Positions 14,014 to 23,129 of a DNA stretch of 64,000 nucleotides are shown here, piece after piece. Made by a program: the position numbers and the translations under genes. The stretch lies in the NCBI RefSeq assembly GCF_030681155.1, contig NZ_JAUXXE010000019.1, forward strand, positions 62,001 to 126,000. The letters run 5' to 3'. Below the pieces are notes generated by a model that was not told the origin of the DNA, did not search any database, and saw nothing but the letters and a program-made list of their open reading frames with translations. How positions within the stretch are numbered: position 1 is the stretch's first letter; each line of letters starts with the position of its first letter. The DNA is from Phenylobacterium sp. GTDB taxonomy: Bacteria > Pseudomonadota > Alphaproteobacteria > Caulobacterales > Caulobacteraceae.

Positions 14014-14682
14014 ATGCAAGCCGAGCCTCCCATCCGCGCCCTGATCGCCCCGGTCACCCCGCTTCAGCAGAACTGCACCATCGTCTGGTGCGCCAAGACC
14101 CTGAAGGCGGCCATCATTGATCCCGGCGGCGAGGTCCCGCGTCTGATCGAGGCGCTGAAGTCCCAGAACCTGACGCTTGAAAAGATCTGGATCACTCACG
14201 GGCACCTGGACCACGCCGGCGGGACGGCCGCGTTGAAAGCCGCCTTCAACGTTCCAATCGAGGGGCCCCACCCCGACGACGCCTTCTGGATCGACGAAAT
14301 GGAAGCCTCGGGCGCCAAGTGGGGCATGCCGGAAGCGCGCACCTTCACGCCGGACCGCTGGCTGCAGGACGGCGACAAAGTGACGCTCGGCGAGACCGAG
14401 TTCGAGGTCTATCACTGCCCCGGTCACACGCCGGGTCACGTCATCTTCTTCCATCGCCAGGCGCAGTTCGCACAAGTCGGCGACGTGCTGTTCCAGGGCT
14501 CCATCGGCCGCACCGACTTCCCGCGCGGCAACCATCAGCAGCTGATCGACTCGATCACCGGCAAGCTCTGGCCGCTGGGCGACAATGTGCGGTTCGTGCC
14601 AGGTCACGGCCCGATGTCGAGCTTCGGCCAGGAGCGCCGAACCAATCCCTATGTCGCCGATCAGGTCCTGGCCGGCGCCTGA
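14014..14682 (+). CDS. MBL-fold metallohydrolase (GloB/hydroxyacylglutathione hydrolase-like)
   Basis: IWITHGHLDHAGGTAAL, HCPGHTPGHVIFF, VLFQGSIGRTDFPRG, FVPGHGP motifs. Confidence 0.9.
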   Translation: MQAEPPIRALIAPVTPLQQNCTIVWCAKTLKAAIIDPGGEVPRLIEALKSQNLTLEKIWITHGHLDHAGGTAALKAAFNVPIEGPHPDDAFWIDEMEASGAKWGMPEARTFTPDRWLQDGDKVTLGETEFEVYHCPGHTPGHVIFFHRQAQFAQVGDVLFQGSIGRTDFPRGNHQQLIDSITGKLWPLGDNVRFVPGHGPMSSFGQERRTNPYVADQVLAGA

Positions 14683-14725
14683 TGCTTTCAATCGTGAAAT
14701 CTGAGCGTTACGCGAGCGCGTAAAG

Positions 14726-15487
14726 ATGCCCCGGATGGAAACGCGCATCGAACAGTCCGCCGCCTCTGCGCAGAGCGCACCGGCCGGCGCCCGCATCCTG
14801 ATGGTCGATGACGACCCCGGGATCCGTGACGTTGTCTCCGACTTCCTGGGAAAGCACGGCTACACCGTCGAAACCGCCGGCGACGCCCGCGAGATGGAAC
14901 AGGTGCTGGAGCGCGGCTCGGTCGATCTGATCGTGCTGGACGTCATGCTTCCGGGCGAGGATGGCCTGGCGATCTGCCGCCGCCTCGCCGTCGGCGAAGG
15001 CCCGCCGGTGATCATGCTGTCGGCCATGGGCGAGGACACCGACCGTATCGTCGGCCTCGAGCTCGGCGCCGACGACTATCTCTCCAAGCCCTGCAATCCG
15101 CGTGAGCTTCTGGCGCGCGTGCGCGCCGTGCTGCGCCGGGCCGAGCATCGCGGGCAAAACGCCGGGGTCGGCGCTGGCTGCGAGTTCGCCGGATGGCGGC
15201 TCGACCTCGTGCGCCGCGAGCTGCGTTCGCCTGAGGGCGTGGTGGTGAACCTGTCATCGGGCGAGTTCTCGCTGCTGCGCGCCTTCGTGGAGCGCCCGCA
15301 GCGCGTGCTTACCCGCGACCAGTTGCTGGAGTTCGCGCGGGGTCCGGATTCGGAGGCGTTCGATCGCGCGATCGACGTCCAGATCAGCCGCCTGCGCCGC
15401 AAGCTGGACGATGGCGGCGGCCAGGACCTGATCCGCACCATTCGCAATGAAGGCTATATGTTCACCGCCAAGGTGAAGCGTACATGA
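14726..15487 (+). CDS. OmpR/PhoB-family response regulator
   Basis: ILMVDDDPGIRDVVSDFL, VLDVMLPGEDGLAICRRL, winged-helix C-terminus AIDVQISRLRRKLDD...IRTIRNEGYMF. Confidence 0.94.
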   Translation: MPRMETRIEQSAASAQSAPAGARILMVDDDPGIRDVVSDFLGKHGYTVETAGDAREMEQVLERGSVDLIVLDVMLPGEDGLAICRRLAVGEGPPVIMLSAMGEDTDRIVGLELGADDYLSKPCNPRELLARVRAVLRRAEHRGQNAGVGAGCEFAGWRLDLVRRELRSPEGVVVNLSSGEFSLLRAFVERPQRVLTRDQLLEFARGPDSEAFDRAIDVQISRLRRKLDDGGGQDLIRTIRNEGYMFTAKVKRT

Positions 15488-16833
15488 CGCCGCCTTGGTC
15501 GGGGCGGCCGACGGCATCGCTGTTCGGCCAGCTCCTGGCCCTGATCGGCATCAGCTTGGCGGCGGCGCAGGTCATCAGCCTGATCCTGCTGTTCAACCTG
15601 CCTCCGCCTGCGCCCGATTTCTATCGCATCAGCGAGATCGTCCAGGCGTTCAACGGAACACCGCCGGCCTTCACCGAGCGTCGACCTTTGGTGATCAAGA
15701 CGGTCGATAACGCCCCGGCGATGGTGATCGACAGCCGGATGACGCCAAAGATCCGCAGTCAGCTGGCTGAGGCGCTGCACGTCCCCATCGAGCGAGTGGT
15801 GATTTCGTCCGCCTCGCGCTTTCCGGTATCGGACCGCCGCGTATTCCGGGTGATCCGCGACCGCATGGCCCGGGACGGCGGCGAGCAGGAAGAGCACTTC
15901 CTGATCGCGCCGTTCGATGTCGCGGTCCAACAGGCCGACGGCCGCTGGCAGATCGTCCGCCCCGAACGCGGCATCGGACTGGATCCTTGGCAGCAACGGA
16001 TCGTGCTGCTGTTCTTCCTGTCGGCCCTGGTGATGGCGCCCGTCGCCTTTGTCTTCGCCCGCCGGCTATCCGCCCCCATCCGGTTGTTCACCGACGCCGC
16101 CGAGCGGCTGGGCCGCGACCCTCGCGCTCCGCCGCTGTCGCTAAAGGGGTCGGCGGAGATCAACGTCGCGGTGAAGGCGTTCAACGACATGCAGGAACGC
16201 CTGCGCCGCTACGTCGAGGATCGCACCGCCATGGTGGGAGCCATCGCCCACGACCTGCGCACGCCACTGACCCGCTTGCGGTTTCGGATCGAGAACGTCC
16301 CGGAGGACGTGCGGGTCAAGATGGCGGCCGACATCGACCAGATGGAGGAGATGATCTCCGCGGCCCTCGCCTTCGTCCGCGACACCACCCGCGACGGCGA
16401 GCGCACGCCGCTGGAACTGTCCTCGCTGCTCGAAAGCCTGTGCGACGAGATGGCCGAGACCGGCGCCGACACCCAGGTCGAACTTGGGGAAAAGGTGGTT
16501 CTGCATGGCGATCCGCTCGCCCTGCGGCGCCTGTTCACGAACCTGCTGGAGAACGCCGTGAAGTTCGGCGGGCGCGCCAGGGCCCGGATCTATAGCGACG
16601 CGACCAGCGCGATCGTGGAAATCGAGGACGACGGCCCGGGAATTCCGACCGAAGAGGTCGAGCGGGTGTTCGAGCCGTTCTACCGTCGCGAGCCCTCCCG
16701 CAGCCGCCAGACCGGCGGCATTGGCCTTGGCCTAGCCGTTGTCCGCTCCATCGCCCGCGGTCACGGCGGCGACGTGACCTTCGTCAACAGGCCCGGCGGC
16801 GGCCTGACCGCCAAGGTTCAACTGCCGATTTGA
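15484..16833 (+). CDS. Sensor histidine kinase (HAMP-HisKA-HATPase)
   Basis: HAMP region FARRLSAPIRLFTDAAERLGRD, GAIAHDLRTPLTRLRFRIE, EIEDDGPGIPTEEVERVFEPFYR; overlaps the response regulator by 4 nt. Confidence 0.94.
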   Translation: MTPPWSGRPTASLFGQLLALIGISLAAAQVISLILLFNLPPPAPDFYRISEIVQAFNGTPPAFTERRPLVIKTVDNAPAMVIDSRMTPKIRSQLAEALHVPIERVVISSASRFPVSDRRVFRVIRDRMARDGGEQEEHFLIAPFDVAVQQADGRWQIVRPERGIGLDPWQQRIVLLFFLSALVMAPVAFVFARRLSAPIRLFTDAAERLGRDPRAPPLSLKGSAEINVAVKAFNDMQERLRRYVEDRTAMVGAIAHDLRTPLTRLRFRIENVPEDVRVKMAADIDQMEEMISAALAFVRDTTRDGERTPLELSSLLESLCDEMAETGADTQVELGEKVVLHGDPLALRRLFTNLLENAVKFGGRARARIYSDATSAIVEIEDDGPGIPTEEVERVFEPFYRREPSRSRQTGGIGLGLAVVRSIARGHGGDVTFVNRPGGGLTAKVQLPI

Positions 16834-17097: not shown

Positions 17098-17316
17098 ATG
17101 GATCTTGATGCCAACGCCAAGCCGAAGTCGCGTCGCGGTTTCGCCGCCATGAACCCGGAACGTCGCCGTGAGATCGCCCGCAAGGGCGGCGCCAGCGTGC
17201 CCGGCGAGAAACGCAGTTTCGCCAAGGACCGCGACCTCGCCGCCTCAGCCGGGCGTAAGGGTGGAGAGTCTTCGCGGGGCGGCGGCCGCACCCGCGGCGA
17301 GCGTCTGGAGAGCTAG
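17098..17316 (+). CDS. KGG-motif small stress protein (YciG-like)
   Basis: 72 aa with repeated glycine/lysine motifs: MNPERRREIARKGGASV...AASAGRKGGESSRGGG; RBS aagagga upstream. Confidence 0.85.
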   Translation: MDLDANAKPKSRRGFAAMNPERRREIARKGGASVPGEKRSFAKDRDLAASAGRKGGESSRGGGRTRGERLES

Positions 17317-19544
17317 GCTCTCAGAAGCACCATTGCGAAGCTTGGAGCGGGGCTTTCCCAGCAGCGTTCCAGCTTCCAACCCGCCTGACCGGCGAGTTTC
17401 TCGAAACCTGCCACGGTGAACTTGTAGGAGTTCTCCGTATGGATGGTTTCGCCCGCGGTGAACGCGAAGCTGTGGCCCGCCACACCCACGATCTGGTCCT
17501 TGCAGCTGACCAGATGCATCTCGACGCGGCTCTCGACCGCGTTCCAGATCGCGCGATGCTCGAACGCAGCCAGATCGAAGTCTCCATCCAGTTCGCGATT
17601 GATCCTGCTCAGCAGGTTCAAATTGAACGCCGCGGTGACGCCCTGGGCGTCGTCATAGGCCGCGACCAAGGTCGCCTCGTCCTTCGCCAGATCCAGCCCA
17701 ACAAGGAAGCCGGCCCCCGGGCCTAGCAGGCGCTTGGCGCCAGCCAGGAAGGCCACCACTTCGTCTGGCTTGAAATTGCCGATGGTGGAGCCAGGGAAGA
17801 AGCCGACGCGCGGCAGCCCCTCCGTCTCGCTGGGCAAGGCCAGCGCCGTCGTGAAATCATCGACCAGCGGCGCCACACGCAAGCTCGGATAGTCGCGCGC
17901 GATGGATGCGGCCGCGGCGTCCAGAGCTGACTGACTGATGTCGATGGGCACGTAGACGCCAAGCTGCGGCGCGGCGTCGAGCAACAGCCGCGTCTTCGTG
18001 CTGGCGCCGCTGCCGAACTCGACCAAGGCGGCGTCCGTCGGGATCGCGGCCGCCATCTCCGGCGCCTGGTCCTTCAGGAGCGCAAGCTCAGTGCGGGTTG
18101 GATAGTACTCCGGCAGCTCGGTGATCTCTTCGAACAGCCGTGATCCCTCGGCGTCGTAGAAGTACTTCGCCGAAAGCTCCTTCTGAGGCCGCGAGAGGCC
18201 CGCCAGGACATCGTCCCTGAAGCTGTCGTTGGCCGGCGACGCCGACGCGCGTTCAGGCCCCGCGTCCCACGCCAATCGGAGCCCGGAGAACATCCAGCGC
18301 TGATGGGGGTAGAAAAAGTTGCGATAGCTCGCCCGCACGTGTCCATCCGGGGTCACACAGCAACCGCCGCGCAGCACCATCTGGCCGATCATGAACTTGC
18401 CGTTGTACTCACCCACCGCCCCGGCCGCCGGGTGGAAACCCGGATAGGGCGCGTAGGCGCTGCGGGTCCATTCCCAGACGTCGCCGAACATCTGGCGCAG
18501 GCCAGGACCAGGTGCTGCGGCGGCGGGCCCTAACTGGCCTTCGTCCAGAAGGTTGCCGGTCGTCGGCAGACCCACCGCGGCGTGTTCCCACTCGGCCTCG
18601 GTCGGCAGGCGCGCGCCCGCCCAGGTCGCATAGGCGTCCGCCTCATAGAAGCTGATGTGCGTCACCGGCGCATGCGGCGCGACCGCGCGGCGGCCCTGCA
18701 ACGTCATGGCCAGCCAGCCGCCAGGACCCTCTTCCCAGTAAAGCGGCGCGGTCCAACCTTCGGCCTGCACCCTAGCCCAACCTTCGGCGAGCCAAAGCTC
18801 GGGTCGGCTGTAGCCGCCGTCAGCCATGAACGAGAGCCATTCGCCGTTCGTCACCAGGCGATCGGCCAGGCGATAGGGCTCCAGGAACGTCTTGTGGCGC
18901 GGGCTCTCGTTGTCAAATGCGAAGCCGTCGCCGTTGTGTCCGATCTCGACCAACCCGCCATCGAATGCGACCTGAACGACCTTGCCGGGATCGCGCCCGA
19001 CGGGCAGCGCCGGGGCCGGCGCATAGGCGGGCTTCAGAGGCGATTGGGCGAAGAGGTGGAGGATATCCATCAGGATCAGTTCCTGATGCTGCTCCTCATG
19101 CGCCAGGCCAAGATCCAGCAACTCGGCGAAGCCTTCGCAGCCTCCGTCGAGCAGCACCGCCATCGCATCATCGACGTGGGCGCGATAGGCCAGCACCCGA
19201 TCCAGCGACGGCCGGGTCAGCAAGCCGCGCTCCGGTCGTGGCTGACGCGGTCCCAGCGCCTCGTAGTAGGAATTGAACAGATACGCGAAGGCCGGATCAA
19301 ACGGCGCGTAGCTGGATAGTCGTGGTCCGAGCAGGAAAGTCTCGAAGAACCAGGTCGTATGGGCCAGATGCCATTTCGCCGGACTCGCGTCAGGCATCGA
19401 TTGAGCCAGTTGGTCCTCGGCGGACAGATGGCGCGTTAACGCCAAGGTGCCCTGACGCACCCTGCGATAGCGGGTCACAGCCTCGCGCGCGCGGGCCGCT
19501 CTAAATGGGGCCGGGGCCAAGCCCTGCTCGTCATGTGACGCCAT
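17313..19544 (-). CDS. egtBD: EgtB-EgtD fusion: ergothioneine biosynthesis sulfoxide synthase plus L-histidine N-alpha-methyltransferase
   Basis: N-terminal DinB/FGE-type EgtB (AKWHLAHTTWFFETFLLGP, GLAHEEQHQELILMDILH iron-binding HxxxHxE, FGDVWEWTRSAYAPYPGF, RGGCCVTP) continuous with C-terminal EgtD (LSRPQKELSAKYFYDAEGSRLFEEITELPEYYPTRTELALL, VEFGSGASTKTRLLLDA, FFPGSTIGNF). Confidence 0.93.
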   Translation of the reverse strand: MASHDEQGLAPAPFRAARAREAVTRYRRVRQGTLALTRHLSAEDQLAQSMPDASPAKWHLAHTTWFFETFLLGPRLSSYAPFDPAFAYLFNSYYEALGPRQPRPERGLLTRPSLDRVLAYRAHVDDAMAVLLDGGCEGFAELLDLGLAHEEQHQELILMDILHLFAQSPLKPAYAPAPALPVGRDPGKVVQVAFDGGLVEIGHNGDGFAFDNESPRHKTFLEPYRLADRLVTNGEWLSFMADGGYSRPELWLAEGWARVQAEGWTAPLYWEEGPGGWLAMTLQGRRAVAPHAPVTHISFYEADAYATWAGARLPTEAEWEHAAVGLPTTGNLLDEGQLGPAAAAPGPGLRQMFGDVWEWTRSAYAPYPGFHPAAGAVGEYNGKFMIGQMVLRGGCCVTPDGHVRASYRNFFYPHQRWMFSGLRLAWDAGPERASASPANDSFRDDVLAGLSRPQKELSAKYFYDAEGSRLFEEITELPEYYPTRTELALLKDQAPEMAAAIPTDAALVEFGSGASTKTRLLLDAAPQLGVYVPIDISQSALDAAAASIARDYPSLRVAPLVDDFTTALALPSETEGLPRVGFFPGSTIGNFKPDEVVAFLAGAKRLLGPGAGFLVGLDLAKDEATLVAAYDDAQGVTAAFNLNLLSRINRELDGDFDLAAFEHRAIWNAVESRVEMHLVSCKDQIVGVAGHSFAFTAGETIHTENSYKFTVAGFEKLAGQAGWKLERCWESPAPSFAMVLLRA

Positions 19545-19615: not shown

Positions 19616-19640
19616 AACGCCGCAACCAAAACGCAGTTCC
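19616..19640 (-). promoter_or_regulatory. EcfG/SigT-type promoter (GGAAC-N16-CGTT) reading toward egtBD
   Basis: Plus strand aacg(19616-19619)-N16-gttcc(19636-19640); reverse complement GGAAC TGCGTTTTGGTTGCGG CGTT; 72 nt from the -10 to the proposed egtBD ATG at 19544. Confidence 0.7.
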
Positions 19641-19674
19641 GGAAATCTGGGGTGTCCGCGGCCGATCGCAAGCC

Positions 19675-19699
19675 GGAACGGTTGGATCAAGGACGCGTT
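19675..19699 (+). promoter_or_regulatory. EcfG/SigT-type promoter (GGAAC-N16-CGTT) upstream of the sigma factor gene
   Basis: GGAAC (19675-19679) GGTTGGATCAAGGACG CGTT (19696-19699); proposed ATG at 19757. Confidence 0.75.
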
Positions 19700-19756: not shown

Positions 19757-20293
19757 ATGAGCGAAGACAGCGATTGGCGCAGCGAGGTCGTGGCGATGAT
19801 CCCGGCCCTGCGGGCTTTCGCCTGGTCCTTGTGCCACAACGGATCGGACGCCGATGACTTGGTGCAGGACACTCTCATCAAGGCCTGGACCAACCGCGAC
19901 AAGTTTGAAGTCGGTACCAATCTTCGAGCTTGGCTGTTCACCATTCTGCGCAACACCTACTACACCCAGGTGATCCGCCGCAGACGTGAAGTTCGCGACG
20001 AGACCGGCGAGTACGCCAACAATCTGAGTTCGCCGCCCACCCAGGACTGGAGCGTCGCCATGCGCGCGCTGCAAGCCGGCTTGGCCCGACTGCCCGACGA
20101 ACATCGCGAGGCCCTGATTTTGGTCGGCGCCGCGGGTCTTTCCTATGAGGAAGCGGCCGAGATCTGCGGCTGCGCGCTGGGCACCATCAAGAGCCGGGTG
20201 AACCGGGCGCGAGCCCGGCTGCTCAAGATCATGGACGCCGACGAAGCCTCCGACGTAATGGCCCTCGATCTTCCAGAGGCCAGCCGGGCCTAG
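19757..20293 (+). CDS. ECF RNA polymerase sigma factor, EcfG/SigT-like (general stress response)
   Basis: AFAWSLCHNGSDADDLVQDTLIKAW...NLRAWLFTILRNTYYTQ (region 2) and LPDEHREALILVGAAGLSYEEAAEICGCALGTIKSRVNRARARLL (region 4); close resemblance to EcfG-type factors as I recall them. Confidence 0.88.
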   Translation: MSEDSDWRSEVVAMIPALRAFAWSLCHNGSDADDLVQDTLIKAWTNRDKFEVGTNLRAWLFTILRNTYYTQVIRRRREVRDETGEYANNLSSPPTQDWSVAMRALQAGLARLPDEHREALILVGAAGLSYEEAAEICGCALGTIKSRVNRARARLLKIMDADEASDVMALDLPEASRA

Positions 20294-22320: not shown

Positions 22321-22345
22321 GGAACGGCCGCCCGGCCGCTTCGTT
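22321..22345 (+). promoter_or_regulatory. EcfG/SigT-type promoter (GGAAC-N16-CGTT)
   Basis: GGAAC (22321-22325) GGCCGCCCGGCCGCTT CGTT (22342-22345), 28 nt upstream of ATG 22374. Confidence 0.75.
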
Positions 22346-22373: not shown

Positions 22374-23129
22374 ATGGCCAACCGCGACCATCACCCAGCA
22401 GATCCGCGCAGCGAAAGTCGCTGGCGCGAAGCCGAACGCCGCGAGGAGCGGCGCGCCGATGATCGGCGCAGCTTCGGCGAGGAAGGTCGCTTTTCATCCG
22501 ATCAGGCCCGCTACTACGGCGCCGAGCCGCGATCCTACGGCCCCTACGCCACCCACCACGTGCACGCCGAGCGTCCGCCCTGGCGACGCGCCCGGTTCGA
22601 TCCGGCTGGTCCGGAGCCCGGCCCCAACCTGCCGCCGGACTACGAAGACGCCCTCACGCGGGGCTATTACAGCCTTGAGGGACCGCATGGCGGGCAGGAA
22701 TACGGCATTGAGGCGCATGGCTACCGCGAATCCCTGCCGCGCCAGCACAAGCATCGACCGCGCCACCAGCGCGCCCCGTCCGGTTACGAGGACGCCCCCT
22801 ATGGCGATCAGCCGTTGGATCGGCGGGACCTCGGGGTCCGTGAATTCGGACCGCCGGCCGACTATGCATACCATCCCCACGCCGACGCCGAATTCGATCC
22901 CGACTATCTAGCCTGGCGCGACGAGCAACTGCGCAGCCATGACCAGGACTACGCCGCCTGGCGGGCCGAGCAGCACCGGAAATATGACGCGGAGTATCGC
23001 GTCTTCCGCGGCGCGCGACAGGACGAGTTCGGACGGAGCTTCACTGATTGGCGGATCCAGCGCGACGCTCAGGACCCGTTGAGCGCGCCGGCAAGCGAAG
23101 GCGAGCCGCCGCCCGAAGACAAGGTCTAG
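22374..23129 (+). CDS. Hydrophilic Y/R/D-rich protein with C-terminal DY-x-x-WR-x-EQ repeats (stress hydrophilin-like, function unknown)
   Basis: ATG 22374 in frame within ORF 21552..23129; C-terminus FDPDYLAWRDEQLRSHDQDYAAWRAEQHRKYDAEYRVFR...SFTDWR; perfect EcfG-type promoter upstream. Confidence 0.75.
   Translation: MANRDHHPADPRSESRWREAERREERRADDRRSFGEEGRFSSDQARYYGAEPRSYGPYATHHVHAERPPWRRARFDPAGPEPGPNLPPDYEDALTRGYYSLEGPHGGQEYGIEAHGYRESLPRQHKHRPRHQRAPSGYEDAPYGDQPLDRRDLGVREFGPPADYAYHPHADAEFDPDYLAWRDEQLRSHDQDYAAWRAEQHRKYDAEYRVFRGARQDEFGRSFTDWRIQRDAQDPLSAPASEGEPPPEDKV

Follow-up and report, generated by a model that had tools for sequence, protein, structure and literature searches.

The closest described system is that of Sphingopyxis granuli TFA, in which egtB and egtD were placed in a general stress regulon in 2020, 'for the first time' according to the accessible text of that report (PMC7083833), so that this membership is, as far as that text goes, already known. 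Specifically, both genes belong there to the EcfG regulon, with promoters of the GGAAC-N16-CGTT class, in an organism showing a hierarchy of two EcfG paralogues in which EcfG1 depends mainly on the primary EcfG. They differ from the locus described below in being separate genes, among 79 transcription units, and the available portion of the report describes no neighbouring EcfG paralogue. In Caulobacter crescentus, the primary NepR-controlled EcfG (SigT) is likewise accompanied by an EcfG-like paralogue, SigU, which carries the SigT motif in its promoter and depends mainly on SigT. The EcfG1/EcfG2 system of Rhizobium etli likewise includes a non-canonical EcfG that lacks a neighbouring nepR or phyR and is linked to oxidative stress resistance, EcfG2 being autoregulated and partly independent of the primary factor; this is however another lineage, and the oxidative-stress target reported in the accessible part of that work is katG, with no ergothioneine link. 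Finally, Methylobacterium possesses an alphaproteobacterial EgtB and EgtD pathway (PMC4621440), but at the locus tested the two proteins are encoded by separate ORFs, and no exact EcfG-type site was found upstream of the egt genes in three Methylobacterium loci. In the open-access literature searched, with few subscription journals covered, membership of egtB and egtD in an EcfG regulon came up once; for Caulobacteraceae, Phenylobacterium included, neither stress regulation of egtBD nor its divergent pairing with a sigma gene was found to be reported.

The window analysed here is a stretch of 64,000 nucleotides, positions 62001-126000 of contig C20 in a Phenylobacterium genome of the family Caulobacteraceae, the nearest named relative of the locus being Phenylobacterium sp. 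Root1290. On its minus strand, a stop-free frame at 17313-19544 encodes EgtB (sulfoxide synthase) and EgtD (histidine methyltransferase) in a single ORF, egtBD, whose start lies at 19544 or 19556 (747 aa, or 743 aa from 19544). The EgtB part passes the TIGR03440 model with 577 bits against a cut-off of 360, and the EgtD part passes TIGR03438 with 404.5 bits against 290.9. The same fusion was found in the Caulobacteraceae, Pseudomonas, Luteibacter and Rhodospirillales loci tested, while EgtB and EgtD are separate in those of Bradyrhizobium, Methylobacterium, Sphingomonas, Variovorax, Aquiflexum and others. The domain order of the fused ORF is B-D, the reverse of that of fungal Egt1. Divergently from egtBD, a gene at 19757-20293 on the plus strand encodes an ECF sigma factor of 178 aa, with sigma-70 regions 2 and 4 and no adjacent nepR.

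The original prediction placed GGAAC-N16-CGTT elements on both strands of the intervening DNA, and both proved exact at the coordinates given. On the minus strand, the egtBD promoter (19640-19616, GGAACTGCGTTTTGGTTGCGGCGTT) has its -35 GGAAC at 19640-19636 and its -10 CGTT at 19619-19616; on the plus strand, the sigma-gene promoter (19675-19699, GGAACGGTTGGATCAAGGACGCGTT) has its -35 GGAAC at 19675-19679 and its -10 CGTT at 19696-19699, both with a 16-bp spacer. The 34 bp announced between the two -35 elements correspond to 19641-19674. Both sites show the features that define EcfG-type promoters, namely GGAAC, a spacer of 16-17 bp, CGTT and a promoter-like distance from the gene. Judged by sequence, two promoters of the EcfG type, the class serving the general stress response, stand back to back at 19616-19699, and we infer that they are active. 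In relatives, the gap separating the -35 elements measures about 32-36 bp in most loci and 20-23 bp in others, ranging overall from 3 to 42 bp; since this spacing varies, a rigid composite promoter is ruled out. The sigma promoter of one Phenylobacterium genome is near-symmetric, the EcfG pattern being readable on both strands over one stretch, some 228 nt ahead of residue 27 of egtBD; a truly bidirectional EcfG promoter is possible there, judging from this symmetry.

The neighbouring sigma factor had been proposed to be EcfG-like, and it does group with EcfG proteins both in a maximum-likelihood tree and by its best PDB match, 5uxx_A (E 6.7e-50, the next match being at 1.6e-22), which is deposited as an RNA polymerase sigma factor and which we take to be the Bartonella RpoE-NepR complex. 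It falls below the NCBIfam sigma subfamily cut-offs (e.g. 228 versus 270 bits). In the tree, its clade (23 rows, support 98/85) is sister to the clade holding canonical EcfG, with a joint support of 98/97; in this sister clade are found the canonical Caulobacteraceae EcfG, secondary paralogues from Caulobacter and from contigs C5 and C30 of the present genome, and rhizobial EcfG including Bartonella RpoE. The -35-reading helix of region 4 is nearly identical to that of EcfG (GTIKSRVNRAR versus GTVKSRVSRAR), so that the window sigma is predicted to recognise GGAAC-N16/17-CGTT.

In agreement with the absence of phyR and nepR from the window noted in the original prediction, the only NepR of the genome is encoded on contig C4, beside another EcfG and PhyR. 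This canonical EcfG, which is 48% identical to the window sigma, comes after NepR and faces PhyR, with a HisKA_2 kinase behind it; the surrounding 10 kb (G000:C4:145000-155000), a stress-gene island, contain nine exact EcfG-type sites. Some of these form divergent pairs, phyR/nepR among them, in which 4 bp and 39 bp separate the -35 elements. The genome contains five EcfG-like sigma genes altogether. With nepR and phyR located beside another EcfG, the window sigma is not the primary EcfG. By this tree it is not an orthologue of C. crescentus SigU either, as the Caulobacter secondary paralogues group with the C5 and C30 copies; SigU was not in the tree set by name and its clade is assigned as probable. 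Unlike SigT and SigU, then, the window sigma lies outside the SigT clade and the probable SigU clade, and it adjoins egtBD. By its position in the tree, it belongs to a separate clade of EcfG-like paralogues, at most secondary and non-canonical. No conserved anti-sigma gene was found among its neighbouring genes, and the search for a conserved downstream partner among the window neighbours returned an M20 peptidase kept only in close relatives.

The divergent egtBD/sigma arrangement, sought in related genomes, was present at 77 of 84 distinct sigma loci, spread over 12 genera as labelled in the genome search. All the genomes compared are assemblies, in many cases metagenome bins, and the loci counted here and below are phylogenetically non-independent. 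The sigma gene is divergent and close in 28 of 29 other Phenylobacterium loci bearing egtBD that were taken from whole genomes, and egtBD is also present in 85 of the 87 sigma-bearing genomes of the family; in some genomes, at least four, the sigma orthologue stands apart from egtBD. In one Phenylobacterium genome without an intact sigma gene, part of a sigma gene survives next to egtBD (50% identity over 68 aa), and the EcfG motif on the egtBD side is still there. The window region 14014-16833 (plus strand), convergent to egtBD, holds genes for a metallo-beta-lactamase-fold protein, a HAMP histidine kinase and a response regulator. The last two recur near egtBD in Caulobacter loci without an adjacent sigma gene, which supports a shared ancestral locus from which the sigma gene was lost or to which it was gained.

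As for the promoters themselves, the exact motif precedes the sigma gene at 80 of 84 distinct sigma loci. Phenylobacterium sp. Root1290 carries it on both the sigma and the egtBD side. Before egtBD it occurs in 52/76 sigma-adjacent loci (0.2 expected by shuffling), in 23/48 Caulobacteraceae loci without an adjacent sigma (0.1 expected) and in 7/26 loci of other Alphaproteobacteria, namely Bradyrhizobium, a Xanthobacteraceae and an Acetobacteraceae (0.1 expected). Outside Alphaproteobacteria, where to our knowledge EcfG does not exist, it was found at none of 41 loci, and a reversed control pattern gave 0 in all four groups. Compared with the 41 outside loci, the three alphaproteobacterial groups yield Fisher p values of 7.6e-15, 3.7e-8 and 7.6e-4, which are descriptive, as the loci share ancestry and p is uncorrected for kinship. 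When up to one mismatch is allowed, the counts rise to 68/76, somewhat inflated because sigma promoters of the GGAACGG form score on the opposite strand as sites with one mismatch, and to 28/48, 18/26 (about 0.9 expected) and 1/41. Of the 76 sigma-adjacent loci, 24 have no exact site on the egtBD side; many of these show a version with one mismatch, which in some cases is only the mirror image of the sigma promoter. When the interval is aligned, GGAAC and CGTT are retained as columns while the spacer and untranslated regions drift; in a column-averaged version, shifts in the alignment blur the egtBD side. The conserved position, spacing and core bases, and the restriction to Alphaproteobacteria, thus bear out the claim that these are EcfG-type promoters.

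The sigma-gene promoter bears an additional feature. In many loci its -35 is extended to GGAAC[GA]G[AT]TG (GGAACRGWTG; GGAACGGTTG in the window), and the sixth position is a purine in 80/80 exact sites. The egtBD promoters show no preference for this extension, and in the family's nepR-ecfG promoters the sequence is GGAACC. A search for GGAACRGWTG-N10-12-CGTT in 90 Phenylobacterium genomes returned mostly the sigma gene's own promoter, with matches otherwise at about background, and no wider sigma regulon was found by this pattern in those genomes. The extension is compatible with autoregulation by a sigma factor of slightly different -35 preference, although it could also derive from shared ancestry.

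Downstream of the sigma gene, a third GGAAC-N16-CGTT match (22321-22345, plus strand) precedes a 251-aa ORF (22374-23129, plus strand) with no Pfam or NCBIfam match, 28 nt separating the end of the site from the ATG. Of 60 Phenylobacterium genomes, 12, the present one included, have an orthologue of this ORF in the vicinity of the sigma gene; the site keeps its position in the five other genomes closest to this one, and most of the more distant genomes bearing the orthologue gave no match. By eye, the C-terminus of the protein shows repeated DYxAWRxEQ / DEFGRSFTDWR segments, resembling SWFGD-type proteins. This ORF is probably a third stress-response gene of the cluster, which would then probably comprise three stress-type transcription units in a Phenylobacterium subgroup.

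How much a match to the motif means must be judged against its background. In the 64-kb window, exact GGAAC-N16/17-CGTT occurs three times against 0.77 expected, and at least three matches appeared in 7 of 100 shuffles. Over the 4.19-Mb draft assembly there is no enrichment, with 64 matches compared to 82 for the reversed control pattern, and a lone match therefore carries little weight. On this count alone the two sites might be accidents of a GC-rich genome, but their positions are fixed across diverged loci, the reversed pattern gives 0 before egtBD, and the motif is missing before egtBD outside Alphaproteobacteria. Conservation thus refutes a chance origin, which we consider extremely improbable; as it appears from these comparisons, the weight of both sites rests on their placement and conservation and not on the match itself.

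It follows to consider which sigma factor would read the two promoters. Compared with the adjacent paralogue, the primary EcfG is at least as good a candidate, because the canonical locus is present in the genome, egtBD keeps its promoter in loci without the sigma gene, and the secondary paralogues of Caulobacter and Sphingopyxis are switched on by the primary EcfG, although R. etli provides an autoregulating counter-example. In the family, the steps by which stress triggers the PhyR-NepR partner switch and the primary EcfG is released are established; here, the switch encoded on contig C4 would free the primary EcfG, which would transcribe both egtBD and the paralogue gene. The paralogue would then reinforce one or both promoters in a feed-forward and probably autoregulatory loop, and ergothioneine would accumulate as part of the general stress response. 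We regard this reading as quite probable, even though the C. crescentus sigT carbon-starvation regulon speaks against it, its 27 genes including none annotated as egtB or egtD, in a strain that may itself lack egtBD; the 24 sigma-adjacent loci without an exact egtBD-side site also count against it. That ergothioneine is an output of the general stress response, as first proposed for this locus, is in our view strongly indicated, with an experimental report in S. granuli, as far as its accessible text goes (PMC7083833).

The adjacent sigma could instead autoregulate and mainly drive egtBD, forming with it a largely self-contained module. The tight linkage retained in 12 genera and the occurrence of egtBD in 85 of 87 sigma-bearing genomes of the family fit such an arrangement, as do the almost unique GGAACRGWTG that marks the sigma promoter off from the GGAACC of nepR-ecfG, the single difference (N versus S) between its sigma4 helix and that of EcfG, and the preference of R. 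etli EcfG2 for its own promoter in the available part of that study. We nevertheless find it rather unlikely, since the extended -35 is not shared by the egtBD promoters, the EcfG-type promoter of egtBD persists where the sigma is not adjacent, and the secondary paralogues of C. crescentus and, in the accessible text, of S. granuli depend on the primary EcfG. A stricter version, in which a family-wide dedicated ergothioneine sigma would escape NepR, prefer GGAACRGWTG, autoregulate and respond to a signal separate from PhyR-NepR, appears to us distinctly improbable. Conversely, the sigma gene may be a hitch-hiking neighbour, with the primary EcfG alone reading both promoters and the paralogue acting elsewhere. 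C. crescentus SigU, which under starvation has almost no targets of its own (one gene), points in this direction, together with the survival of egtBD promoters without an adjacent sigma and the genomes in which the sigma orthologue lies away from egtBD; the linkage has however been held over 12 genera while the genes downstream of sigma change, and we give this possibility about the same low credence as the self-contained module. We retain as the preferred explanation that the primary EcfG drives both genes with reinforcement by the paralogue.

In conclusion, what appears from these comparisons to be new is the conserved divergent paralogue, the GGAACRGWTG -35 found almost only at the sigma promoter, and the third conserved site at 22321. 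The data turn a regulon report from a single species into a prediction, namely that ergothioneine would be a core output of the general stress response in much of Alphaproteobacteria, including Caulobacteraceae, Bradyrhizobium and others. In addition, the reason for extra EcfG paralogues was 'not satisfactorily explained' as of 2013, in the accessible part of that source, and the egtBD/sigma pair offers a natural two-gene system in which to address why alphaproteobacteria retain them.
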